The notes under the pieces are model-generated. The model had not been told where the DNA came from. It made no database searches and saw only the letters and a list, made by a program, of their open reading frames with translations. A DNA stretch of 64,000 nucleotides from Polytrichum commune (lineage: Eukaryota > Streptophyta > Polytrichopsida > Polytrichales > Polytrichaceae), in NCBI GenBank assembly GCA_950295325.1, contig OX485806.1:25480001-25544000 (forward strand), written 5' to 3'. The translations under genes were made by a program, and so were the position numbers. Shown here piece after piece: positions 3,020 to 39,600 of this stretch (its first letter is position 1; the number at the start of each line of letters is the position of its first letter).

Positions 3020-5250
3020 CCATAGAGTCATAGACCAAGTGTCCTGGTAGATTTTAAGGCAAATCCGGTGGAGATCCAAGTATTTCCACATCCAACCGCT
3101 TACAAGGCGAACGTGTCTTATTCGGTTACTTATATGAGTCGGTCAATTATATTTGAGTGTTGTGTGGTCAAGTTCGGATCGAGCAATGAATACGAAAAGG
3201 ACATGTGTTTCAAAAAGATTGGAGTACGAGCTAAGAAATTTGTGAAGTGTTCTAGGGTCGATAATCTTCACAATTGGGGGGCCTTGGTGGTCGTTTATGA
3301 TTCTGATTACTTTGACTTTGAAAATTCACAGCATCAGCATGAGAGATTAGTAGATTCCATAGATGTTGCATCAATCTTATATCACATTTGCGCATCCAAG
3401 GAGAATCATGACTTTGCAATCCAAATTGAGAATCATGGCAAACTACAAAAACTAACCGTTTGAGACACATTACTACAAAACGGGCAAAATATCATTGGTA
3501 AGTTCCTTCTCCGCGAGATTGAAGACTACAGAGGGCCTCAATCTCTGAGGATAGTTTTGGGCATAATCGGTCAAGATCCTAGTGTTCCCCAATCCAACCC
3601 ATTACATGTTATAATCTTTCGGATTTTCTTTATTATGTCAAGATATATTCCATATATCACTCTAAAGTGATCGGTAACTTTCATGAAGTCTTGAACATCA
3701 ACCGGTTATTGCTCAAACTTAACCGGTTCATTTGTGACTACATTGTTTTGTCTAATTAGTGTGGATTTCCGTTTGGAGTTATGCATTGCTATACCATTTT
3801 ACTGAGAGTATCATGTTATACCTAAATAACATAAGTTGTTAGTATGCACGCCCAAGAATATGATACAACTTGGTTGGGTAAAATATGATAATGTGGGTAA
3901 AAAGTTAGAGCCACACGACACTCCGAATGGTACCCGCCCTAATTAGACAAACCAGTGCAGTGATCTGTTCTCCTCCGTTCATTGGAACGCCTCATATGAC
4001 AAAATTGTAAGCAAAGGGCGAAAGGGGTCAGTTATTCCAGAGGATGCCGAATGAAAATGTAATTGAATTGTACCTTCTCGGTCATGTGCGTCCTGGTAGA
4101 TTTTAGCCAAAACTGGTCGAGACCCAGGTGTTCCAAATTTAACTGTTTATAAGGTGAATGTGCTTTATTCGGTTACTTCTCTTAGTGGGCCACCTGTATT
4201 TGAGTGGTATGCGGTTAGGTGTGGACTTAAGAGTGGATACCACAAACACATGTGTTTGAAAGTGATTCGACTATGTGCTCAAGTTTCTAAAATTATTCTA
4301 GCATCAATAGTCATCACTATTGGGGGCTTAAGTGGATGTTCTAAAGTTCCAGTTATTTTTACTTTGAAAAATTGTAGCATCAACATGAGAGATTGGTATA
4401 ATCCATAGATTGTTACCATAATCTCATATCGCATTCGCTTATCTAGGAAAAATCCTAACATTTGGAATCCAAATTGAGAATCGTGGCAAACAACAAATAC
4501 TAACCATTTAACCCCTAACTTCTCAAGGAGCCCGTTTTTGGTTGATAAATGACTTCTTCTCTATATTATGTTTGTCCAACTCATTCATCCATAATCAAAA
4601 TAACTATAAACGTCAAGCCAACATGGATATGTATGGATAGACACATGAGCCATGCAATTTATAGATGATTAGAGTGTGTAAAAATATGTCAAAGTGGGAA
4701 GTGGTCATGTTTTCGTTATGTTGGGAGCTCATGTGAGGGTGTTGACTCCAATCAATAGTTGTCACGTGAATGCAATATTTTGCATGAACAACAAAGATGA
4801 TTATTTTGATAAAACCAAAATGTTTTTTCGAGTATATGTAGAAACGGTCTTCATGCTCACATCAATCACTCAATTCATCATTTGGACACTCGCGGAGGAT
4901 ACAACATGACATTTTCTTGTGCATCACTTCTTTGTTATAATCTAAAAATTTGAAGGATTATTTATGCCCATTTCCCCTCTTGTTATAGCTCATCTCCCAT
5001 GTTTCAAGATCCTAAAGACAAAACTGATTTTAATCTCAAAACTAATCCATGTAAATTCATCAACCAACATTGAACGAAATGCACTCAAACAACCTTTCAT
5101 AAGATTGGGAGGTGGAAGGTTAAGACACGTTACTTTATGTTGATATCTTTTCGATTTACTTTCATTAATTCAACATCTATTGCAAGAATTCCTCCAAACT
5201 GCTGCGCTATTTACCTGGACTCGTGAAGTTGAACCCGCTGGCCCATCGGT
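3020..5250. repeat. Composite repeat unit, copy B
   Basis: Second copy of the unit described at 120-2460, in direct orientation. It contains module X (3026-3463), an inverted-repeat element (3746-3955), module Y (4090-4520) and the tail (4520-5216). Similarity to copy A fades at about 5216-5250, where the GC-rich island starts. Parts of the same unit recur at about 47160-47390 and about 48600-49450, so it is a dispersed family and not only a local duplication. Confidence 0.8.
3026..3463 (+). other. Module X, longest open version (unidentified)
   Basis: Open stretch of about 145 codons from just after a TAG at 3023 to the TGA at 3463. It reads HRPSVLVDFKANPVEIQVF at the start and ends with IENHGKLQKLTV. 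There is no ATG before the conserved part; the first possible non-ATG start is a GTG at 3068. If it was ever translated it was probably an exon, or lost its start. It is the least damaged of the X copies and the best query for a homology search. No motif, signal peptide or membrane segment is obvious, and I do not recognise the family. Confidence 0.4.
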
Positions 5251-6060
5251 AACTAGAGGTTGAATATCTCCGAATTCTTCCCGCAGTAAAATCCCATTTC
5301 CCTCTTCATTGCTGCACCATTTTCGATGCCGGAGGTGCACAGTGGCGTGCAGGGATTATGCAAGGCGCAGCATACCAGGCTTTCAACCTCACGCCGACTG
5401 GAAGGTACCATATTTCCACTTGCATTTTGTCGGTTTCCTTTCCTCTCTTGAGTTTCCGAGAAGGAGCAGCGCCATAGCCTGTTCCTCGCGGAGTTTCTGA
5501 GGGAGAGGGCAACGCCATGGCCAGCTGCACACACGCTCAGACAACTCTCCACCCAACATTACAGGCGCCTGCTTCTTCTCGGAGATCGTCCCTCTGCTAC
5601 ACGAGTGCCAAGTAGTGTCGTTCGCTCGGTTTCTCAGTGGAAGAAACTGCATGAAGGGAGTTCAGTTCGAGTGCTTGCACTAGCGGAGGTTTCATCGAAA
5701 GCTTTGACATGCGATATTACCCTAGAACGGATGCCAAAGACGAGGTGGAGGGCGTGTGATTGGATCAGCAGCTAACGAACTTGGTAGTTGTTTGTGGGCC
5801 TCATTGCGGAGTGCTGACGACGTCTGCCGTTTTGATTCTGCAGCAGCTTTGGAGTGCAAAGGGGTGAGGATGAAGTGCAGGGTTAAACCCCTGTTCCCGT
5901 CGTCTTTTGTCTCGTCTCTTTCGTGTGCAACACTTTTGTTCACTCACAGTATAACTACATCCATGTTTCTTCTGTTTCAGGGAAAAGGAGCATCGGATGC
6001 TGCTGGCCCCTCTGCATCGACGGAAAGGTGAGCCCCTGGTGAAGCTCGGGCTTTAGGAAA
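5250..6060 (+). other. GC-rich island with gene-like signals (unidentified)
   Basis: This stretch is clearly richer in G+C than its surroundings. An ATG at 5517 lies in a strong context (gccATGG) and opens 32 codons rich in Ser, Thr, Ala and Arg, beginning MASCTHAQTTLHPT and ending at TAG; this composition resembles a plastid transit peptide. The next frame continues openly for about 55 codons with VRSVSQWKKLHEGSSVRV. Further on, GCAAAGGG|GTGAGG and TTCTGTTTCAG|GGAAAAGG look like a donor and an acceptor around a short intron, with another donor at AAAG|GTGAGCCC (about 6028). It could be the 5' end of a broken plastid-protein gene, a captured fragment, or a non-coding leader for the NLR at 8201. 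I cannot choose. Confidence 0.3.
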
Positions 6061-8185
6061 TAAATGATTGCATTCCACTTCTTCTTCTTGTTCGTTGTGT
6101 TATTGCTCGGCATGTTGGGAAGTGCGGGGGAGTGATTGGGTGGATTGGCAATCGTGCTCGTGGTCTCCGTGTGAGTGTGCTGAGGGGATGCACTCACGTG
6201 GAGGTGATTGGTGGTATGCGCCGTGTGTGTTGGAGTTGTTAGCTACATGAGGTCAGGTAGATGGGTCTTCCATTGTCACTTTTCCCGATCACCCCACTTC
6301 CCCGAGCGTCTGAAACGCGCGATTCGGTACACGATCCTGGTTAGCAATTCCAAATCGGGGCCGTGAACGATGTCCTCACAGGTTTTGGAGCTCATGTGGG
6401 TGACTTACTCATTGATAACCAAGGCAAGATTCTTGTGCTCTTTAATTGGTCTCGTGGGTCCCCCACTTATGTGGACTACTGTAGTGAGCCTGGAATAGAG
6501 TTATTTGTAAAGTAAAGCAAATGAACCCACGGAATTAGTCCCAAGCCTTGAGTTTATGAGGATCAATACAAAAGTCACCAAGTTTTCTTAATGCTTAGAT
6601 TATCATACACATAGAGCGGTGTCGGGTTATTAGAAACCGGCTTTCTAGATTCGATGTCCTACTAGGATGGGTGGGTCCAATTGGTCTTGCATTGGCTGTT
6701 GCAGGATTTAGGACAACGGGTCCCATGTGCATACCTAGTTTAGGTCCCAAAATTCTCTCAGTTTGGGAGGAGGAAAGAGGTCATCTCAAAAATTTCTCGC
6801 AACTTTGAAAATAGGCTTTGATATAGGACGACCTAGCATGCTCGTAATAAGAAGTTTTCTCAACAAGGATCAAACCCAAGGTTTAGTCTCCCTTTGAGAG
6901 ACTTTATGGATAAATCCAACGTTTACCATGTTTTGAGGACGAAGTCCAATGCAAGTTCTTAAGAAACGGGTGCCATTTTAGTATCCATTGCATGCCTAAG
7001 CATACGCCGCACAAGTGTAGGTGATCAATTAAGTTATAGGTAAGGTAGAAGGGTCTTCACGGGTTAGGTAACTTGATTAGCCCACATCTATGAGCGTATG
7101 AGATCAATACGAGATGGTTAGCAAATCCAAGTTGGGGTATGGGTCTGTAGACATTTTCGTCATAATTTTGGAGCTCATATGAATATCTTGTTGATCAATA
7201 ACAAAGTCAAGATTTGCATACTCATTGAGTAGTCATATAGGCCCCGCAATTATGTTGACTATTGAGCTTAGAATGTTGACCATAATTTGAGCACGTAGTG
7301 TGATCTCTTTTAAACAAGTGCCTTTCTGGTTTCCATTTTACATGCACGAGCAACCATACACCACACAAATTCAGGTGACTAATTAAGTCAAGTGACATAA
7401 TTGGGCACGTTCACCTTTGTTGTTTGAGCTCCGTCAAGGTTGTATACTGTTCCTTACCGAGGGAAATGGGTCCTAAAGAGATGCCAAACATCCCTTCACA
7501 AACCAGATTGAGCCAATATGGCATTTCATAGCTCTTCAGCATTCGAATTAGTACATTCGAATTAGTGCACGCTGGGATTGGTGTATTTGAGTTGTATTTG
7601 ATCTGTGACACAATGTGGATTGTGTAGCATCGCTGTCAATGTAGAGAGTATAGTGGATCTTGGAGTCTTGCATGATATGAGTGTATATGTATATGTATAT
7701 GTATATGTATCGTATATGTATAATTGATGGACGGTACGAACAACTTCTTGGGTTCTTTCAACTTTAAACCTTAAATTTAGTTGATGTTTGAAATAAATGC
7801 TCGATTTGGATTGGATAGCGCTTGAGGTTTCATGAAGCACGTGAGAGAGTGTTGGATTAGAATGTGCTACAATCCTCAAGTTGAACACATTGTTCTTTTT
7901 ATTCCTTTCAAATTCCTAGTCAGATTCGTGTGGCATGTCGGTAGTAGCAATGATTAGTTAGGTTATTGGATCTTTGAGGTTTAGATTTGGACCAAATTTG
8001 AATATTGTCGGTTGCATATCAAGAGTTTGTTGTGTTTGTATGTCATTATAGTAATATGCAAACTCAATGTCCTTTATCATGGTAAATGTATTGTGGTGGT
8101 GCTCAAATCTCAAGTCCCATCAACATTATAATGTAATAAACATATGGGTACTATCATTGGAATTGACAACCAACCTGGGTAATAT
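6060..8185. other. AT-rich spacer with diverged duplication
   Basis: No gene found. About 6255-6500 and 7040-7275 are a diverged direct duplication; both read GGTTAGCAA, TTTTGGAGCTCAT and CAAGATT in the same order. A second pair is about 6965-7040 and 7315-7395 (CCATT, GCAT, CACAA, GGTGA, AATTAAGT). The segment 7681-7720 is a short run of GTATAT units. The 3' end (8187-8200) is a plausible splice acceptor or proximal leader of the NLR gene. Confidence 0.6.
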
Positions 8186-8200
8186 TTGTTTGCATGTCAG

Positions 8201-11200
8201 ATGGGAAATCCAGATGTTGTGAACGCAACGCTAGGTGCTGCATTTGGTGTCGCTTTTGGAGGCGTTTGGACCTTGCTTGCAAAGGTGATTGAAGGATTGA
8301 AGTTTGTTCACCATTGCCATGAACAATGCACATCTTTAAGAGAATATTTGGAGAAGATCAAACCTATGTTGTCACAAATATCCAATCAATGTCAATCAGA
8401 GGAAGCATTGAAAAATTGGTTGGATGCATTTCAAAAGTGTGTTGAAGATGCGAACAAGATTTTGGAAATTTGTAGAGATGGCTCTAATTGGGAGCGGATC
8501 CATGAGGTGGAATATGGGCTTCAAATATCGAAGCTAATAGATAAAATCAAGGAAAATGTGAATATATCACCCATGGCACTTTTGACACACGAGAGTATTA
8601 CAAAATCCAGCATGGGCACTAGTGTGATGATGCAAGAGGTTCCCCAAGAGATTCTTGGAATGGGGGATCTCTTCGAAAGAGTGAAATCGAAAATCATTGA
8701 AGGGCAAAGTGTGAGTCAAAGCGGTAGATGCGTTGCCATCCAAGGCATGGGTGGATGTGGGAAAACCCTAGTTGCACAAATGGTGAACAACGATGAAGAT
8801 ATCCAAGAATTTTTTGGGAAAAACTCCATTTTTTGGATCACAGTTGGACGTGATGCATCCGTTTCCGCCATTTACGTACGCTTGAGGGAGCATCTACATG
8901 TTCAAACAAATTGCGAAACACCTCTTGAAGACCAACGCACACATTTGATGAATGTGTTTTCAAATCATAGAGTTTTGTTAATATTGGATGACGTGTGGGA
9001 TAATGTGCACGAGTTTAAAAAGATGGTATATTGGTTGAACATCGCAAAAGGATCGGGGACTGTGACACTGGTCACTACAAGAGATTCGTCGATCGCATGC
9101 CGCTTTAATGCAAGTGTGGAGGTTCTCTCATTACTTTCGAAGGAGCACAGTTGGATATTGTTTTGTACGCATGCGTTTGGTACGAATGGGCTTCCATCAA
9201 ACCAAGAATTGATGAAATTGGCTAAAGATGTGTGCAATGAATGCAAAGGCTTGCCGTTGGCTTTGAAAGTCATTGGGGCGGCAATGAAGAGCAAGGATGA
9301 TATTGCGGAATGGAGATCGACATTGCAAGATCTACGGAAATCGAATGCAACGGTTGACAATAGCATTGAACAAGAACTTTTCAATCGCCTCCGAATCAGC
9401 TATGACCAATTGGACGAACCCACAAAAAGATGTTTCTTATATTTTGCAGCCTATCCTGAAGATTCGAAAATACCACGAAAGGAGTTATTTGATATGTGGG
9501 TTACCGAAGATTTCTTTGGCGAGGACCTTGATGCGGAGGATGCTTTGGATAAAGCGCGCTCTACTTTGAATGAGCTTAGGAGGCGATTATTAGTTGATGA
9601 TTGCGAGACTCATTGGGAAGAGGAGTGTGTCAAAATGCACGACATTTTACGTGATCTTGCAATGCATATGACAAAAGAAGGTGAGGAGGTTGTATGCGAG
9701 AATTTGTTCAAGCCCGGAATGAAAAATTTGAAGCAATTTCCGACTGCTTGGTTAAGGAAACCATTGAAGGTGAAGAGGATGTCATTACTTGGCCAGAATA
9801 TCAATAGATTTCCCAACAACTTCATAGCTCCAGAGTTGGCAATATGCATGATTGGTGATTCTTCAACCACATCATCAACATCTTCAAGCGTACAAGAATG
9901 TGTCATAGAAGAGGGCTTCTTTGAAAATATGGCCAACATTAAATACATGCGACTACATTTAAATGAAACTTTGAAAAAAATACCTTCGACCATTGGGATG
10001 CTAAGGTTACTTCAACACCTCGATCTGAGTCTTTGTATGGCATTGAAAGAGCTTCCGGAGAGCATCGGAGGATTGGGGTCCCTTCAACACCTCGATCTGA
10101 TCTCGTGTTGGGAGTTGAAAGAGCTTCCGGAGAGCATCGGAGGATTGGGGTCCCTTCAACACCTCGATCTAACCGAATGTTCGTCGTTGAAAGAGCTTCC
10201 AGAGAGCATCGAAGGATTGGGGTCCCTGCAACACCTCGATCTGAGGCTTTGTACGGCGTTGAAAGAGATTCCGGAGAGCATCGGAGGATTGGGGTCCCTT
10301 CAACACCTCGATCTATCCGAATGTTGCTCGTTGAAAGAGCTTCCAGAGAGCATCGGAGGATTGGGGTCCCTTCAACACCTCGATCTAACCAAATGTTGCT
10401 CGTTGAAAGAGCTTCCAGAGAGCATCAGAGGATTGGGGTCCCTGCAACACCTCGATCTGAGGCTTTGTACGGCGTTGAAAGAGATTCCGGAGAGCATCGG
10501 AGGATTGGGGTCCCTTCAACACCTCGGTCTGAGCTGTTGTATGGCGTTGAAGGAGCTTCCGGAGAGGATCGGAGGATTGGGGTCCCTGCAACACCTCGAT
10601 CTGAGATATTGTGGGGTGTTGAAAGAGCTTCCGGAGAGCATCGGAGGATTGGGGTTCCTTCAACACCTCGATCTGTCCACTTGTATGGCGTTGAAGGAGC
10701 TTCCGGAGAGCATCGGAGGATTGGGGTCCCTGCAACACCTCGATCTGAGCTATTGTAGGGCGTTGAAAGAGCTTCCGGAGAGCATCGGAGGATTGGGGTC
10801 CCTGCAACACCTCGATCTGAGCTATTGTAGGGCGTTGAAAGAGCTTCCGGAGAGCATCGGAGGATTGGGGTCCCTTCAACACCTCGATCTGAGATATTGT
10901 GGGGTGTTGAAAGAGCTTCCGGAGAGCATCGGAGGATTGGGGTCCCTTCAACACCTCGATCTGACCAATTGTGGGGCGTTGAAAGAGCTTCCGGAGAGCA
11001 TCGGAGGATTGGGGTCCCTTCAACTCCTCGATCTGTCCACTTGTGTGGGGTTGAAAGAGCTTCCGGAGAGCATCGGAGGATTGGGGTCCCTTCAACACCT
11101 CGATCTAACCAAATGTTGGTCGTTGAAAGAGCTTCCGGAGAGCATCGGAGGATTGGGGTCCCTTCAACACCTCGATATGAGCAAATGTAAGGCGTTGGAA

Positions 11201-11392
11201 AAGCTTCCGGAGAGCATCGAAGGATTGGGGTCCCTTCAACGGCTCTATCTTGATTCATGTGTGGCACTCACTCAGCTTCCGGATGCCATGGGAGCATTGG
11301 GGTCCCTTGCATTACTTGATATAAAGAATTGTGAGGCATTGAAAGAATTTCCATGCTTCACAAACAGTTCCCGACTTCAAATTTTATGCTAA
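8201..11392 (+). CDS. RPW8-type NLR immune receptor (RNL-like)
   Basis: Intracellular immune receptor of 1063 aa in one uninterrupted exon. I start it at the ATG at 8201 (MGNPDVV); five more in-frame codons lie upstream but begin with TTG, and the bases before the ATG (TGTTTGCATGTCAG) look like a splice acceptor. Residues 1 to about 130 resemble the RPW8 four-helix domain (hydrophobic LGAAFGVAFGG start, then YLEKIKPMLSQI). The NB-ARC domain follows: P-loop GMGGCGKT 182-189, kinase-2 LLILDDVW 259-266, GLPL 350-353, RNBS-D CFLYFAAYPED and MHD 479-481. All are intact, so nucleotide binding is plausible. From about residue 591 there are nineteen 24-residue LRRs on the pattern LKELPESIGGLGSLQHLDLS, ending shortly before the stop (LQILC). 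In this family the N-terminal domain is thought to act at membranes after activation; the ligand here is unknown. Confidence 0.93.
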   Translation: MGNPDVVNATLGAAFGVAFGGVWTLLAKVIEGLKFVHHCHEQCTSLREYLEKIKPMLSQISNQCQSEEALKNWLDAFQKCVEDANKILEICRDGSNWERIHEVEYGLQISKLIDKIKENVNISPMALLTHESITKSSMGTSVMMQEVPQEILGMGDLFERVKSKIIEGQSVSQSGRCVAIQGMGGCGKTLVAQMVNNDEDIQEFFGKNSIFWITVGRDASVSAIYVRLREHLHVQTNCETPLEDQRTHLMNVFSNHRVLLILDDVWDNVHEFKKMVYWLNIAKGSGTVTLVTTRDSSIACRFNASVEVLSLLSKEHSWILFCTHAFGTNGLPSNQELMKLAKDVCNECKGLPLALKVIGAAMKSKDDIAEWRSTLQDLRKSNATVDNSIEQELFNRLRISYDQLDEPTKRCFLYFAAYPEDSKIPRKELFDMWVTEDFFGEDLDAEDALDKARSTLNELRRRLLVDDCETHWEEECVKMHDILRDLAMHMTKEGEEVVCENLFKPGMKNLKQFPTAWLRKPLKVKRMSLLGQNINRFPNNFIAPELAICMIGDSSTTSSTSSSVQECVIEEGFFENMANIKYMRLHLNETLKKIPSTIGMLRLLQHLDLSLCMALKELPESIGGLGSLQHLDLISCWELKELPESIGGLGSLQHLDLTECSSLKELPESIEGLGSLQHLDLRLCTALKEIPESIGGLGSLQHLDLSECCSLKELPESIGGLGSLQHLDLTKCCSLKELPESIRGLGSLQHLDLRLCTALKEIPESIGGLGSLQHLGLSCCMALKELPERIGGLGSLQHLDLRYCGVLKELPESIGGLGFLQHLDLSTCMALKELPESIGGLGSLQHLDLSYCRALKELPESIGGLGSLQHLDLSYCRALKELPESIGGLGSLQHLDLRYCGVLKELPESIGGLGSLQHLDLTNCGALKELPESIGGLGSLQLLDLSTCVGLKELPESIGGLGSLQHLDLTKCWSLKELPESIGGLGSLQHLDMSKCKALEKLPESIEGLGSLQRLYLDSCVALTQLPDAMGALGSLALLDIKNCEALKEFPCFTNSSRLQILC
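9971..11338 (+). repeat. 19-unit 72-bp LRR-coding tandem array
   Basis: Units begin TTGAAAGAGCTTCCGGAG and recur every 72 bp without a single indel: from 10043 to 11339 is exactly 18 x 72, and one more diverged unit precedes at 9971. Each encodes one 24-residue LRR. Most bases are identical between units. Differences cluster in the codons of the DLSxCxA segment, for example LCMA, SCWE, ECSS, YCRA, YCGV, NCGA and KCWS. Some variants recur (RLCTA twice, RYCGV twice, SYCRA in two adjacent units), which points to duplication by unequal exchange. Confidence 0.95.
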
Positions 11393-13360
11393 TTTACTAT
11401 ATTCTCAAGTTTAGTTCATGCATTCAACTAGTTAATCGTCAACAAAATGAACTTTGCATGCCACGTACGAAAGTTAACGTGAACTAAAAAAAAGGTTTTT
11501 TTTTGGAGGTTTCAACATACATAGCATGCATAGGAGAGAGGTCTTTGTTTTGTTTAAACATTTAAATTTTTGTGAAGAATAGACTGAAGGTATATGTACA
11601 AAAGGGGGCCCTAAGGTTTAGAGAAAACAATGACAATAAATGTATTAGTTTTATCCGATTCACGTTTTCACCTGTTGTTGACATGTATTGATAGACTTCA
11701 ATGATTACCATCTCCTGATTTGTTAGAATTTGCAATTGGATTCTAGATGCTTACACACCGGATGCTTTTGGAGCACTCGTGGGCTCCCTCCAATTTTGCT
11801 CTTTAGATTGTGTACTAGTTATTGCGCTCTTGTATTTGTTTGTTTGATGTAATCATTCACTTACATGCTATGGATGGAAAAAATGTAGAACGATTTTCTC
11901 ATTGCAAAGTGAAAGTGGATTTTTGATATGAAATAACGGAATATCCAATTCATGATTTGTATATATATGTCTAGTGTAGGAATTCATCACATTAAAGTGA
12001 AAAACTTAGTACAAATGCGTGAGTCTATTTTCTACTATGCCATTGATACACATATATTTGTTTTTTACTTTTATAAAATTCTCAAATAAAGGACGTTTGA
12101 TTTCATGGTGACCCATGTACGTCATTTAGGTTTCCAATGAAGAATCCACTTGTTGGGTTTAACCAATTCGACAAGGTTTTAGAAATTTAATTCACTTTAT
12201 AATATCCTCATGACAATGTGTGATATAATTGGGTGCAAACATGGTAAAGTGGACCTAGAAAGTGTTTCGGTCTATGTAAATTTGGAGGTGCCATTAGAAA
12301 GTAACTACTCTTAAATTTAAGTGTGATTCTTCTATGAATATCAATATATTGTTCTTATAGTACACTAGTATGAGCATCAAATGAGTGAAATAAAAGTGAA
12401 GAAAACATGTATTTTAGAATATCTATATATCATTTTTCAACACCTATACAAACCGGTCACGATTTGCAAGTGGTTGAAAGTGACATATGACTAGTCTCAT
12501 AACAACATATTGAATTAGAATTTTCGTATAATGAGCTAAAACATATCTATATGCACATATATGTTGGAAAAAATGAACAAAACCATTTATTTTGGTGTAA
12601 GAAACAATTGCATAAAACTCAAATTTAGTAATTTTCCCCATTCTTTTTGGAATTTTCATAATATCATATACACAAAGGTCATGATAAATGAATTTCCACT
12701 TTATTACATATTTAAAAAAAATTATAACATAGTTAAAATTTGATTTTCTTTGGAACAAAATGCTATATCTACTAGTTCTAGTGCAAGGAGCACTAGGAAT
12801 GCAAGTGAGATTAATGAGGGAATCATGGAAAAACATCCCATTTTTTTTATCATCATTCATCGTAAATCTTCATACAATCATTAATGAACTTAGGATCCTT
12901 TAAATTTTGGAAGCATTGGGTTTAGAAAGCATATCAAGTAGGCTTATAATAAACCTATGGGTACTTTATGTGACATAGAGTGCAATAAACGTCCATGTTG
13001 AATGCGGTTCCCTTTATGTTCTCTCATGTTCCCTCCCATGTTCTATGACATTAACAAGTGGTGAATTCACTTACAACAAATGAGTGCAAGGATCAGAGAT
13101 TGTCCATTTTTATGTGTTTGCTCCCAATGACATAAATGAACCTTTTGTGGGGCCTCGTCTAAGGATGTCTTGGAACATTAAATTTGTTACAAAATATCAC
13201 GGCAATGTGCAAAGCTTGGACATATGGCTATAATATTGTCTAAACCTCATCTTCACCCAAGGCAAGGGCTTAATTCACATTTCCTAGAAATTTAGAGGTT
13301 AAGCAATATGAAATCCACAAAGTATTAGGACCAATGACATTCCTAGCACATGGTTTTGTG
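11393..13360. other. AT-rich NLR downstream region
   Basis: No further gene. AATAAA at 11635-11640, about 240 bases after the NLR stop, is a candidate polyadenylation signal. The rest is AT-rich with no convincing ORF; the longest (12444-12860, minus) is low-complexity and unlike any protein I know. Confidence 0.5.
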
Positions 13361-13499
13361 CCACACCCTACCCCTACGGCCCACCCAAGCATAGTGGGTG
13401 TGTCTGAGTTCATTGGATATTTTTAGTCGACTATGTGGGGACCTAGGAACTTGCCCTAGGGTGAGATAGGCGCAAGCCAATTTGCCCTCCTTAAGAAGG

Positions 13500-13867
13500 T
13501 GGTCCACCTTTTATGGTATTTAAGATCACATGCGTAAGAGACTCACTTACCCTATTATGAGGCATTTCCTAGGTTACACTCACGATTAACAACTTCATCA
13601 TTGATAGCGTCACCTCATGACGGTCGCTAGGAGTACGCTCAAAAACATCTTAACCTTGTATACTAAACGCAAGACTATCATCTAAGGTATCGCAATGTGC
13701 CAGCTACTCTAAATGTCACAATGTAGATATTTTTCACATAAAGAATTCATCTATGTTGACCAATCGAATCATATTGGCAATTAGCGGACATGACAATTTA
13801 AGACCTCTACGCATCTAGTTTAGGCCCTTTGCAAATAGTGTACGTGACAATAAATACCATAAACGGT
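13500..13867. repeat. Dispersed repeat, left copy
   Basis: Matches 62650-63115 in the same orientation. Both carry CCTTTTATGGTATTTA, the run ACTCTAAATGTCA followed by AGTGTAGAT or a near variant, and CATCTAGTTTAGGCCCTTTG, and both end at CATAAACGGTGGAG. Immediately after that shared edge this copy runs into helicase pseudogene sequence, while the other copy does not. The repeat edge is therefore a junction. Confidence 0.7.
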
Positions 13868-14820
<953 letters not shown>

Positions 14821-14967
14821 TAAACCCTACAGTAAGTGAAGTTGTTGTTTTGCAGACACGTTCCGCCCGTATGTTTAGTTTCAGAACACCAAAATTTTGC
14901 AATAAAAGAGTTTGCATGGCGATCAAGACTTTAGGGTACGCCCGCTCAATTTGCAAGCGTACTCTAA

Positions 14968-16848
14968 CTGATCACATAGCTGCATAACCTTTTGTTACCA
15001 CTAACCAAAGGTTGGTTGACTAATGCTTTGCTCAACTTGCCCCGGTTTTTAACATGACATTAATTATGACGCATTATAATTATGTGGCCCAAACAATTGA
15101 TGTTTCATTATTATTAAAATAATATAAAATAATATAATTATGATTAAATATGTATTTCTAAGTTTGAACATTGATTTGATATTTTATTTTATTTTATGTG
15201 TAAAATAATTTATAGTTTTAACATGTATGCTAATTTTACAATGTATGTTAATATAGGATGATGTAAGGAATATTGTGGTCCACCTCGTAGCATAATGGAA
15301 AATAAGAGGTGGGCATTCAAGACAAAAACTTGGGCTACTCATTTGTAAAAGTTGGTTAGCATTAGGGGTATGAGTGAGTTAACGTTTCTTCACAAAAGCA
15401 AGTTCCCAAAAGTTAGCTAATTTCTACTTTGATGACTTTTATTTGAACCTTGATTTTAACTAGGTGGTGTGGCCCTGAGATAGATTAGCTCTCGAATATG
15501 TTGGCTAAGTCTCGTACCTAGGCAATACAGGCACAATATAACTAATTTGAGTGGTTACTTACTCTAACTGGAGCCTTAACCGGGATGTGCAATTGGGCAG
15601 TTACAAGGTAGATGGACGTTAAGCAAATTACACCCTTTTATGGAATTACATATTGGAATCACATAATTCTACGACCTCCATGACTTCGTATTGTAAATTT
15701 CATGTTTTACAAGAAAAGTTAAGTAGGTTGTGTGGACATTATAGAACATAAAAAACTTCACTTGGTGAGAAACTACATTCTCAATAACAATAATAACATA
15801 CTTTAGTATTGCATAACTCCAACTGGTAACTAACACTAAAACCAAAACCAAAGTAGCCTACACATGTTTTAATAGTGTGAAGTAGAGGTACAATATTTTT
15901 CAGCCACAAGTCTGAAATTTCTACTGCTTGTGAACATTTTCAAGTTTGAAATATGTAATTTTGGAAAGGAAAAAAATGATAAAGGATGTATACATGCAAC
16001 ACTCTAAGAATCCAAAAGGTGTTCATCTTGCTTCCAAAAGTTATAGCCTCAATACATCCTATAGATTGACTTTTGTGCTTGTGTAATTTCTACATTGTTC
16101 TAAGATCCTTACATATGAAGAAATGTTGGAAATCCCTTTTTATAGGCTTGCTTATCTTTATAAACAACAAAATTAAGAACCAACTTCAAGTACTATAAAA
16201 CTTGCATGAATGCTAAAGGACTTCCAAAATTGACCCAACCCATATTCCGGTTAAAGCTTTGGTCAGAGTAAGTAACCACTTAAATTAGTTATATTGTGTC
16301 CACACCGCCTAGTTAAGAGAATTGGCTAACATATGAGGTAGCTAACCCATATGAGAGCTAATCTATCTCAAGGCGGCCACACCACCTGATCAATATTTGG
16401 GTTCAAATTAAAAGTTAGCTAACTTTTGGGACCTTGCTTTTGTGAAGAAATGTTACCTCATCTATGCCCCTAACGCTAACTAACTTTTAAAAATGAGTAG
16501 CCGCATGTTTTTCTTGATTGTCCGCCTTTCATTTTCCCCATCTCTTCTCTATCCCGCTATGAGGTGGACTACACTATTTTTTACACCATCTTGAATTAGC
16601 ATATATCTATAAATTTAAAAACTAATACATGTAACTGGTAAAATACTAATAAATATAATATTCAAATTTCAAATTTAGATTATATTTATTATTTTGTATT
16701 ATAATCATATTGAAACATAAATGGTTTGGGCCACAAAATGACAGTATATGATAATTAGCGTCATGTTCAAAACAAGTAGAGCAAAACTTTGGTCAGTCAA
16801 CCCTTTGGTTAGTGGTAACCGAGATGTGCGGCTGTGCGATAAATTGGT
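14968..16848. mobile_element. DNA element with about 600-bp terminal inverted repeats
   Basis: About 14968-15594 and 16236-16848 are long inverted copies. The outer ends share GTTACCACTAACCAAAG; inner landmarks are AAAGTTAGCTAA, GGTGGTGTGGCC and TGGTTACTTACTCT. The core of about 640 bp (15595-16235) shows no transposase. Long inverted repeats with no coding capacity fit a non-autonomous MULE or foldback element. Exact ends and target duplication could not be fixed by eye. Confidence 0.75.
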
Positions 16849-36600: not shown

Positions 36601-39600
36601 GCTCCTTAAAAGACCAGCTAAGCATTGCCAAAAGTCTCAAACATATGTACCACAATCCTATGGCTGCCAATGCCAAAATATGCACCAGAAGGGATTCCTC
36701 TAAGACGTTTGAACACAAACGGGTTTGAACCTAAACCCCTACAAACACAAAAGTGGAGAAAAACACACCAGCAAGGAGTGCCCACAAAAGTCTTCCTGGA
36801 ACGTTGCCGATCACCCGTATCAAACATGCAAGCAGATACACCAAAGTCTCCCAACTTTACAGCACCATTCCCATCCACCAAGATATTTCCAGCCTGTTCA
36901 CCAATATAACATCAAACTGTCAGAATTAACATGTGAAGTGTGAGTGATGAAGTCCTATTTCAGACTTGAATGTTTAAATTTTGAGCAGCATTTATATGAT
37001 GTTGTGGTACTCTTTTCATGATACTTCTGCAGTCTTACTGTAGAAGCACGTTTTCCAACCAGCTATGGTGTGTGAGAAAGACTTCAAAAAAGAAGTGCAA
37101 CATGCATTATGTATCCTGCAAGAACTCCCAAAATTGAGGGCAATGAAATCCTCCTGTATGAACACAAACTGCCCCATCACCTCCTCCACAAAACACCCTT
37201 CCACAGATCAAACTTCCCCATCATCATAGCTAGAGTATAATAGTACCTTAACATCCCTATGGATGTGGCCATGGCGATGCAGGTACTCAAGAGCCTTCAG
37301 TGATTCCTTTAAAACAGTAGCAATTACAGGCTCCTCAAAACCCTCTGGAAAAGCTGCTTTCATAATGTGAAGGCATGACCCACCAGCCATGTAGGGCATA
37401 ACAACCCAGAGATTGCGATCTACAACAAAGGAGCAATAGGCCTTCACAACATTTGGATGGTTGATCAAGCTCATTGTCACTGCTTCTCTGCGTATATCAT
37501 CCTGCACACAGCATCCCTCATCAGTAACTCTGACTGGAACTCACCAGGACTAAGAGAGGAAACTCCACTCTTCATCCTGGTTAACTTATATTAATCAAAT
37601 CCTATAGCTTCCTTCTTTTTTATGCCACTTTGCATGACCACACAGATTCTCAAAATTCAGGACAAATCTTACCATAACCAGGAGAATGGTGATAAACCTA
37701 GGATTGTGTACAAACCCCTTCACATTAATTTAAAGAATACCCAAGAAATGTCTCTCTGTCTGATTGACACCCTCTGGACCATAAAATTAGGGATTTGTTG
37801 ACCACTCTGCAATAGGACCTTGAAGAAAAAGCCCAACAAATAGGAGGAGCGAGATGTTGCCATGATCCCTCAAATTCACCTTGAGAAAGTGACATGAGTA
37901 ACCAACTACTTTAGATTTAAGACCTAATGTAAGGATCATGAGTGGACAACCTAGCAGCAACAAGGTGTGGTGAAAGTCCAATTTCACCAGCAACTCAAGA
38001 TGTCCACTATATGTATACCCCAATTTTGTGTCTGTTCTGTTGAACCTGATGCATAAATATATGCACTGGAGGAAACCTTCTGAAGGCACGCAATCAAACC
38101 TTGGATGTACAACACTTACATACCCAAATCAAATTTTAAAACCTGAAATGAAATCTTCTGTTACCAGATACAGCGAAGGCTGAGACTAAGCTGCTATCAA
38201 CTTAAACCCCAATCCTGTAATCCCTCTATCTTCACACGTCAAAAGAAAGAAGTTCATCAACAGTGGTTAGACAAAGATTCTTATACTTCACCATGCTCAG
38301 AAAGCTTCCAGCAGTGGCAGTATTTCCCACAACATACCTAATTGGGTACATACCCAAATCCGAGAGCATCGAAAAGGTAAGTGACAGGGTAATCAATCCA
38401 GGACAACAGAAGGGCTGAACATGGAGGAATGGAATGGCTGAAGATGGCGGATAGAAAGTGCATGCGTAACACTAACCCCACTTCAAACCCAATTAAATTG
38501 CACTTTTACACAACAAAATACTTCGACCAGCTAGACAGACAGACAGTCCACACATCCTTTTGGTTACCAGAGTAAACTCAGTGCATGGATACAGAGCAAG
38601 CTACTCAGAACCTCAATGCCACGAATTTCAATGACGATAAATTCTATCAGAGCCTCCAAACCGCAAGAAATGGGCTAACCATGCAATGACGACAAGATTT
38701 TCCCTAAATTCTCAGAAATTCGGGATGATGCATATGGAGCTGCATGATGAGCGGGGGATACTTATCCAGCAACATCCTCCTCCATCGGTACACGTGGACA
38801 CGAAGCGAGCTACTCACAAGCTCAATGCTGCGGTGGTGATAAATTCTCACAGAATCTCCAACCCCCAAGAAATGGGCTATCCATGCAATGATGACATTTT
38901 TTCCCCAAATTCTCAGAAATTCGGGTGATGCATATGGATCTGCATGATGGGAGGAAGATACAACGTCCAACAACTTCCTCCTCCATCGGTATGTGGGGAC
39001 ACAGAGCGAGTTACTCAGAAGCTCGATGCTGCGATGATGATAAATTCTCCCAGAACCTCCAAACCGCAAAAAATGGACCAACCATGCAATCATGACAATT
39101 CTTTCCCCAATTCTCAAATTCGGGATGATGCACATAGAGCTGCATGGTGGGAGGAGGATACAACATCCAACAACATTCCCCTACGTAGGTACACGGGCAC
39201 ATAGAGCGAGCTACTCAGAAGCTCAAAACTGCAATGATGATAAATTCTCGACAAACCTCCAAATCGCAAGAGATGGGCTAACCCATGCAATGGTGACAAA
39301 TTTTCCCCCGATTCGTAGAAATTCGGGATGATGAACACGGAGCTGCATGATGGGAGGAGGATACAAAATCCTCCTCCATCCTCCCGACAACAAAAAGGGA
39401 AGGACAAGGGGGGGCTCAAAATTTATTAAAAAGAAAAAGAAATAAAGGACCACCCACCAGGCTACTGTTGCACTTTTCCAGATCCAGGCTCTTGATTGCC
39501 ACCACTTCATTGTAAGGAACGCAGAGAGCCCGAAACACCGTGGCGCTCACGCCCTGCCCTATCTCCTCCAACAACGTGTAGTCCACCGCGGCCACCGGGT

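Follow-up and report, generated by a model that had tools for sequence, protein, structure and literature searches.

How does a plant receptor gene come to hold a long run of nearly identical repeats that differ strongly at only a few codons in each? The question arises from a stretch of 64,000 nucleotides of the moss Polytrichum commune (GenBank assembly GCA_950295325.1, contig OX485806.1, positions 25,480,001 to 25,544,000), the whole of which is called the window here. An initial annotation had noticed in it an array of 72-bp leucine-rich repeat (LRR) units, and had proposed that the repeat expands and recombines while new specificities are kept at a few positions. The gene that contains the array encodes a nucleotide-binding leucine-rich repeat receptor (NLR) of 1063 amino acids, which that annotation did not name, and the array supplies its LRR part. 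The explanation that best accounts for the data, and which we consider probable, is a CNL receptor whose 24-aa LRR modules are turned over and homogenised while a strip of contact positions is under selection. The parts of the gene are as follows, where L001 to L007 denote further copies in the same genome:

8201 to 11392, plus strand: CNL-type NLR frame, 1063 aa and a stop; homologous unbroken frames are found in L001-L006
8201 to 8660, plus strand: N-terminal (CC/RPW8-like) region; Pfam RPW8 28.7 bits and Rx_N 24.9 bits, just under the curated cut-offs of 30.4 and 27.7
8672 to 9406, plus strand: NB-ARC domain, aa 158-402; PF00931, E 1.8e-42, 145.8 bits against a cut-off of 23.5
9452 to 9661, plus strand: winged-helix WH_DRP, aa 418-487; PF23559, E 6.2e-10
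9938 to 10009, plus strand: diverged 5' edge LRR unit
10010 to 11233, plus strand: 17 homogenised core LRR units of 72 bp (24 aa) each, with hypervariable codons 7, 8, 10 and 11
11234 to 11305, plus strand: terminal LRR unit outside the homogenised core; L003 and L004 have it unchanged
11306 to 11377, plus strand: C-terminal cap LRR unit

Judged by its sequence, the gene is a CNL-type plant NLR, because it combines Pfam matches to NB-ARC, WH_DRP and LRR with GMGGCGKT, GLPLAL and MHD in the translation (MHD at aa 479-481, inside the winged-helix region), which we take to be the P-loop, GLPL and MHD motifs of NLRs. Many LRR models match the C-terminal LRR domain, among them LRR_14 with 309.9 bits. 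A sequence search of solved structures returned 7crb (RPP1), Roq1 and ADR1 among its best matches, with further matches to At5g04720, At5g66900 and RPP13-like protein 4, presumably ZAR1. A CAG stands immediately 5' of the frame start at 8201 and could be a splice acceptor.

The array has the regularity first ascribed to it: 9971-11338 is exactly 19 x 72 bp, without indel and in frame. Tandem Repeats Finder reports a period of 72 at 10010-11308, with 18 copies, 87% matches and a score of 1779. Read in the LRR register LxxLxLxxCxxLxxLPxxIxxLxx, the stretch 10010-11305 divides into 18 full units. The description of the units as nearly identical applies to about 17 of the 19, the core, and fails for the diverged edge units; between the terminal unit and each of the 17 in the core, 20-26 of 72 nucleotides differ, against a core-core mean of 8.5. 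Mean pairwise identity among the core units is 88% for nucleotides and 81% for amino acids, and identity to the consensus averages 86% for amino acids, reaching at least 85% in 8 of the 17. Fifteen of the 17 are distinct. As had been noticed, some variants occur twice, with units 4 and 7 (apart) and units 11 and 12 (adjacent) exactly alike at the DNA level. Variation was said to fall on the few codons around DLSxCxA, and it does: positions 7, 8, 10 and 11 hold 4, 8, 9 and 5 kinds of residue, while every remaining column of the 15 distinct core units holds 1-3. The Cys at position 9, described as fixed, is so throughout the core units of the window gene and is lost in 2 of 99 distinct core units from seven genes. 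These are L003 unit 7 and L004 unit 9, where Gly and Tyr replace it. The frames 10033-10758 (plus), 10385-11098 (minus) and 10425-11267 (minus) were considered as genes and rejected as alternative frames of the homogenised array.

Seven further close copies of the gene, L001-L007, were found by DNA search in the same genome (408 Mb, 64 contigs), on contigs C2, C4, C5 and C7. Weaker matches lie on C6 and C3, and those numbered L008-L010 were excluded from the family counts (in L008 the NB-ARC part is 64% identical and unit identity is 61%). Every copy has an array that is an exact multiple of 24 aa, in 72-bp steps, with unit number differing from copy to copy. Counted up to the terminal unit, there are 18 in the window gene and 19, 16, 15, 12, 15, 15 and 13 in L001 to L007, the typical terminal unit being absent from L005 and L007. 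L007 has its frame split by a repeat insertion, which fits a family that has decayed or persists as decoys with an LRR part that no longer functions. We consider this extremely unlikely, since 7 of the 8 copies, the window gene and L001-L006, have uninterrupted frames (919-1084 aa), and both the pN/pS of the array backbone, given below, and the dN/dS of the N-terminal half are below 1. The latter is 0.48-0.82 in 26 non-sister pairs of the eight copies, and the N-terminal half is therefore under constraint. The insertion in L007 (1824-2798) is a 975-bp repeat with at least 40 near-full-length matches at 98% identity or more, itself included, among the 40 of 3334 candidates that were scored; several of the matches form same-strand pairs about 6 kb apart, like long terminal repeats.

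The clearest view of how the array changes comes from the window gene and L004:

5752 to 16312, plus strand: segment duplicated about 58 kb upstream (around G000:C4:25427400-25438000, L004 and its flanks)

In this segment, mismatches outside the core array never exceed 4 per 400 aligned bases and there are a few indels, and L004 is, on sequence grounds, taken to be a recent segmental duplicate of the window locus. The two copies differ at 18 of 4246 aligned nucleotides in 5752-10009 and at 10 of 5075 in 11234-16312, a total of 28 in 9321; the outermost stretch, 5351-5751 (13/400), is omitted from this sum, which becomes 41/9721 with it. The N-terminal coding half has a single difference in 1809 nt. 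Despite this, L004 has 12 units against 18 in the window gene, which supports the expansion and recombination of the repeat that had been proposed. When 13 units (cap included) are matched in order as well as they can be, 54 of 936 nt remain different, and taking the nearest unit in any order gives a lower bound of 35 of 936. Even at this bound, the array is about twelvefold more diverged than the rest (35/936 versus 28/9321, Fisher p 1e-20), or about ninefold once 5351-5751 is added. L005 and L007 tell of similar change, sharing identical units 1-7, with unit 7 triplicated in L007 and with different 3' parts.

Differences in unit number are also what would be seen if the assembly had collapsed or expanded the array and so given a wrong number or order of units, and assemblies are described as error-prone at tandem repeats (PMC6868369). 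We consider such an artefact very unlikely here. With 15 of 17 core units distinct, there is enough difference to place them; the contigs in question measure 42-70 Mb; paralogues carry different arrays in the same register, 6 of the 7 with an unbroken frame; and collapse cannot create many single-base differences between units.

Comparison of non-sister genes separates the interior of the array from its edges. Core units at equal index differ by 11.6 nt if numbered from the 5' end and by 11.5 nt if numbered from the 3' end, with an overall figure of 11.4, and the interior units show no clear positional orthology between non-sister genes. The first unit (9.5 nt) and the last but one (9.2 nt) are somewhat closer between genes. 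Two units of one gene are slightly closer than two from different genes (permutation p 0.0005, seven genes, L004 omitted). The terminal unit is only 4.3 nt apart between genes (14 pairs) and 24.2 nt from the core units of its own gene. A homogenised interior with preserved edges is the pattern predicted by unequal crossing-over.

Selection on the unit columns was assessed with Nei-Gojobori proportions of nonsynonymous (pN) and synonymous (pS) differences, with bootstrap, and with an MG94-type likelihood on unit trees; these tests are uncorrected for recombination and for the number of tests. At columns 7, 8, 10 and 11, pN is 0.59 in the window gene and 0.50 among the 99 distinct units of seven genes, with an overall pS of 0.12 and 0.18. 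The ratio of the two is 5.0 (bootstrap 3.9-7.6) in the window gene and 2.9 (2.5-3.3) in the seven genes. Backbone pN/pS is 0.34 and 0.55, respectively. The dN/dS comparison of variable and backbone codons, suggested at the outset as a check, gave an omega of 5.5 at the variable columns of the window gene (likelihood ratio test against 1, p 0.009) and 2.0 in the seven genes (p 0.0015), with 0.55 and 0.75 for the other columns pooled. Since the columns had been picked on the window gene, L001, L002, L003, L005 and L006 served as an independent test set; in these five paralogues omega at the preset columns is 1.72 (p 0.018). Only columns 5, 7, 8, 10 and 11 exceed the backbone synonymous rate in them (2dlnL > 10.8), with column 10 highest at 7.5-fold, and the structural columns 1, 4, 9, 12, 16 and 19 evolve at 0.10-0.23 of that rate. 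The idea that the Cys is itself a selected contact was rejected, as it behaves like a structural ladder residue (beta/alpha 0.11).

These patterns could also arise by concerted evolution without adaptation, in which recombination homogenises the units and surface positions vary freely, at or near the neutral rate. Homogenisation needs no selection, and several results weigh against the probable explanation given above. A minimum-spanning count of codon types at the variable columns has no nonsynonymous excess, with 24 of 28 changes nonsynonymous in the window gene (p 0.16) and 53 of 74 in the seven genes (p 0.94); the count is subject to saturation and leans towards synonymous paths. Synonymous change, too, is faster at those columns in the seven genes (p 0.008), and a local rate effect may explain part of the variability. 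The unit trees assume no recombination, an assumption that recombining 72-bp units violate. Turnover meets its own difficulties. In none of the eight arrays is similarity significantly higher between neighbouring units than between distant ones (p 0.06-0.76). Recent exchange between non-sister genes is not shown by the longest exact array matches, which are not clearly long; in the 5 pairs measured, of the 20 non-sister pairs of seven genes, they are 55-95 bp in the arrays versus 81-130 bp in the first 1800 nt, and the match is longer in the array in one of the five (L001/L002, 95 versus 81). For the window and L004, either exchange with other units altered the array once the duplication had occurred, or recent conversion affected the flanks and spared an older difference in the array; under both histories the array would be decoupled from the rest of the gene. 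We nevertheless regard evolution without adaptation as unlikely, as omega = 1 is rejected in the window gene, in the seven genes, in the five paralogues with preset columns and in three arrays at other loci (below), and pN at the columns is 2.9 times overall pS in the seven genes.

What the selected positions might do depends on where they lie. AlphaFold2 was run on residues 523-1063 of the window protein as a single sequence, with no relatives. The structural model that had been proposed as a check came out as a regular LRR solenoid, in which strands are predicted at 3-5, 3-6 or 3-7 of the unit and helices at 17-21. The best of five models has a mean pLDDT (predicted local distance difference test) of 76.6 and a pTM (predicted template modelling score) of 0.75, with residues 1-46 of the model unreliable; the other four have a pLDDT of 62-73. 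VIA-align matches it to a bacterial LRR protein (Z 36.7), SHOC2 (Z 34.5) and the RPP1 LRR (Z 27.6). As judged by strand phase rather than by coordinates, the inward Leu residues at 4 and 6 should leave position 7 pointing outward where the strand ends or immediately beyond, and positions 8 and 10 should stand on either side of Cys 9, which faces inward. At position 11, 86 of 99 units have Ala, Val or Ser, and this position may be partly buried.

In the preferred explanation, the receptor is an intracellular immune receptor whose C-terminal LRR solenoid consists of about 17 repeats of a single 24-aa unit. The homogenised interior and the array differences between copies are probably due to unequal crossing-over and to gene conversion among units in the same register. 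Purifying selection appears to hold the backbone codons, and the strip of positions 7, 8, 10 and 11 (with 5 in relatives) appears to be pushed to change. From LRR geometry and other NLRs, this strip is expected at the exposed end of the beta-sheet and in the following loop, where, as in other NLRs, it may contact effectors or guarded host proteins. Binding would then free the NB-ARC switch, and the N-terminal domain would signal defence or cell death. The array would in effect be a rack of interchangeable contact modules, and such modules could give the plant new recognition surfaces. The strip might instead be a docking site for a host partner, an adaptor kinase or guarded protein, with the array tracking host partners and not pathogen effectors. 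In the excerpts of PMC8226289, RPP13 diversity falls at positions 7-10, and similarly placed ZAR1 residues bind RKS1, which would suit a docking site. Fast turnover would be easier to understand with a fast-changing target, and we think docking to a host partner rather unlikely.

The array design is not confined to this family. The NB-ARC part has 98 scored matches in the genome among 414 candidates. Contig C6 (44.65 Mb, 11% of the genome) holds 52 of the 98 scored and is a predicted NLR-rich chromosome. Every eighth NB-ARC match from row 12 was sampled, giving 11 loci (L017 among them), and an array was counted where at least 5 motif units lay on the same strand, within the stretch taken around the match, with a mean unit identity of at least 82% at the DNA level in the best frame; the compared units fit the consensus pattern, which biases them toward likeness. 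Homogenised LRR arrays lie near the NB-ARC in 9 of the 11 sampled loci, and the same array design thus recurs at most of them. The remaining two comprise one with diverged LRRs (43%) and one with no LRRs found in the fetched stretch. At several of the nine loci separate frames carry the array and the NB-ARC, and there the two would belong to one gene. Two of the nine, L033 and L035, step mainly by 48 aa. Steps of 48 aa, with two LRRs per unit, are seen in L010 as well as in these two.

A kinase and an NB-ARC share one frame in 4 of 5 further loci scanned (L017, L021, L022 and L028), a class suggested as moss-specific in the portion of PMC3352924 drawn on here. The NLR frames of L017 and L018, 2759 and 3204 aa long, contain 66 and 73 LRR units that fit the motif; 48 and 62 of these, respectively, recur exactly at the DNA level.

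We measured the columns in 20 arrays, namely 8 of the window family and 12 others; these 12 have at least 14 motif units apiece (smaller ones were excluded) and come from loci picked for strong LRR or NB-ARC matches. In 20 of 20, pN at 7, 8, 10 and 11 exceeds overall pS and that of the backbone does not, and among the 10,626 four-column sets these columns place at 191 or better. The likelihood test was applied to 3 of the 12 other arrays and rejected omega = 1 at the columns in each, namely L019 (p 0.024), the second frame of L021 (p 0.019) and L023 (p 6e-5); for L023, where the columns show no synonymous change, the estimate is degenerate.

Several other features lie in the window. A frame at 14299-14823, inside the duplicated segment, has a match to the helicase-associated domain HA2_N (E 5.9e-07) and is perhaps a fragment of a DEAH-type helicase. 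A direct repeat of about 2.2 kb occupies 141-2482 and 3030-5239, with 86-94% identity in the listed pieces, and short partial third copies fall between 47201 and 49357. A 201-bp tandem repeat spans 38631-39371 in 3.7 copies. Rfam returned nothing at its gathering threshold within the window.

Nearly identical tandem LRR repeats are known from the Xa1/Xo1 zfBED-NLRs of rice and the flax L and M TNLs, where, in the parts of PMC7004385 drawn on here, the repeat is 93 aa and about 150 aa long, respectively. As here, repeat number in Xa1/Xo1 varies by gene, the half before the LRRs is nearly unchanged and the final repeat is less conserved. The unit of the window gene is a single LRR of 24 aa and not one of 93 or about 150 aa, and no zf-BED was found among Pfam matches up to E 0.01 in the frame 8201-11392, so the gene lacks these features of Xa1/Xo1. 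Prevalence differs as well: according to the same source, such repeats occur only at the Xo1 locus among more than 1000 rice NLR sequences, in contrast to 9 of 11 sampled loci here.

Another parallel is provided by fungal NLRs. In the Podospora nwd family, as described in the excerpts of PMC4986451, WD, ANK and TPR repeats undergo homogenisation, change in number and positive selection, and concerted repeat evolution with selection at presumed interface positions is likewise indicated here. No LRR was found among the internally conserved fungal NLRs in those excerpts, whereas the present genes are plant NLRs with LRRs; in plants, highly conserved ANK/TPR/WD repeats are described there as rare (0.4%). 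High internal conservation is defined there as more than 85% aa identity between repeats over at least 100 aa; the window units have 81% mean pairwise identity, in a comparison that does not reproduce the exact fungal method. Repeat number varies from 12 to 19 units among eight paralogous copies, which are not alleles. Positive selection at the presumed interface, the further fungal criterion, is found by likelihood, with the codon-type count against it. Homogenisation of repeats with selection is treated in general by PMC5120217, as far as its excerpt goes.

In the Arabidopsis highly variable NLRs (hvNLRs), RPP13 especially, variability falls on exposed LRR positions, as is expected here; hvNLRs are defined in the excerpts of PMC8226289 by allelic entropy between individuals, and the copies compared here are paralogues of one genome. 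The layout CC-NB-ARC-LRR, its CC part being putative in the window gene, is shared with the MAEPL-motif CNLs of nonflowering plants, as presented in the section of PMC11218826 consulted, which is silent on LRR homogenisation. No report of homogenised single-LRR arrays as a rule in a plant genome was found among titles and the beginnings of abstracts of the papers listed, a search that left subscription literature mostly outside. Within that search, what appears to be new is a repeat unit of only one LRR, and how widespread such units are among the NLR loci of a single plant genome.

How plants without adaptive immunity obtain new receptor specificities quickly is an old question, and the pair formed by the window gene and L004 isolates one step of an answer, the turnover of modules with selection on a small set of codons in every module. 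All modules have the same length and register, which makes swaps of arrays and changes in module number directly testable. More tentatively, and with more doubt than conviction on our part, turnover of single LRRs might be the standard route to new specificities across the whole NLR repertoire of this moss, CNLs and kinase-NLRs alike. The 24-aa units would then be germ-line contact cassettes, the plant LRR counterpart of the internally conserved NLRs of fungi, perhaps changing fast enough for siblings to differ in their arrays. If the pattern holds across mosses, it would link the evolution of plant NLRs to the repeat turnover known from fungi.

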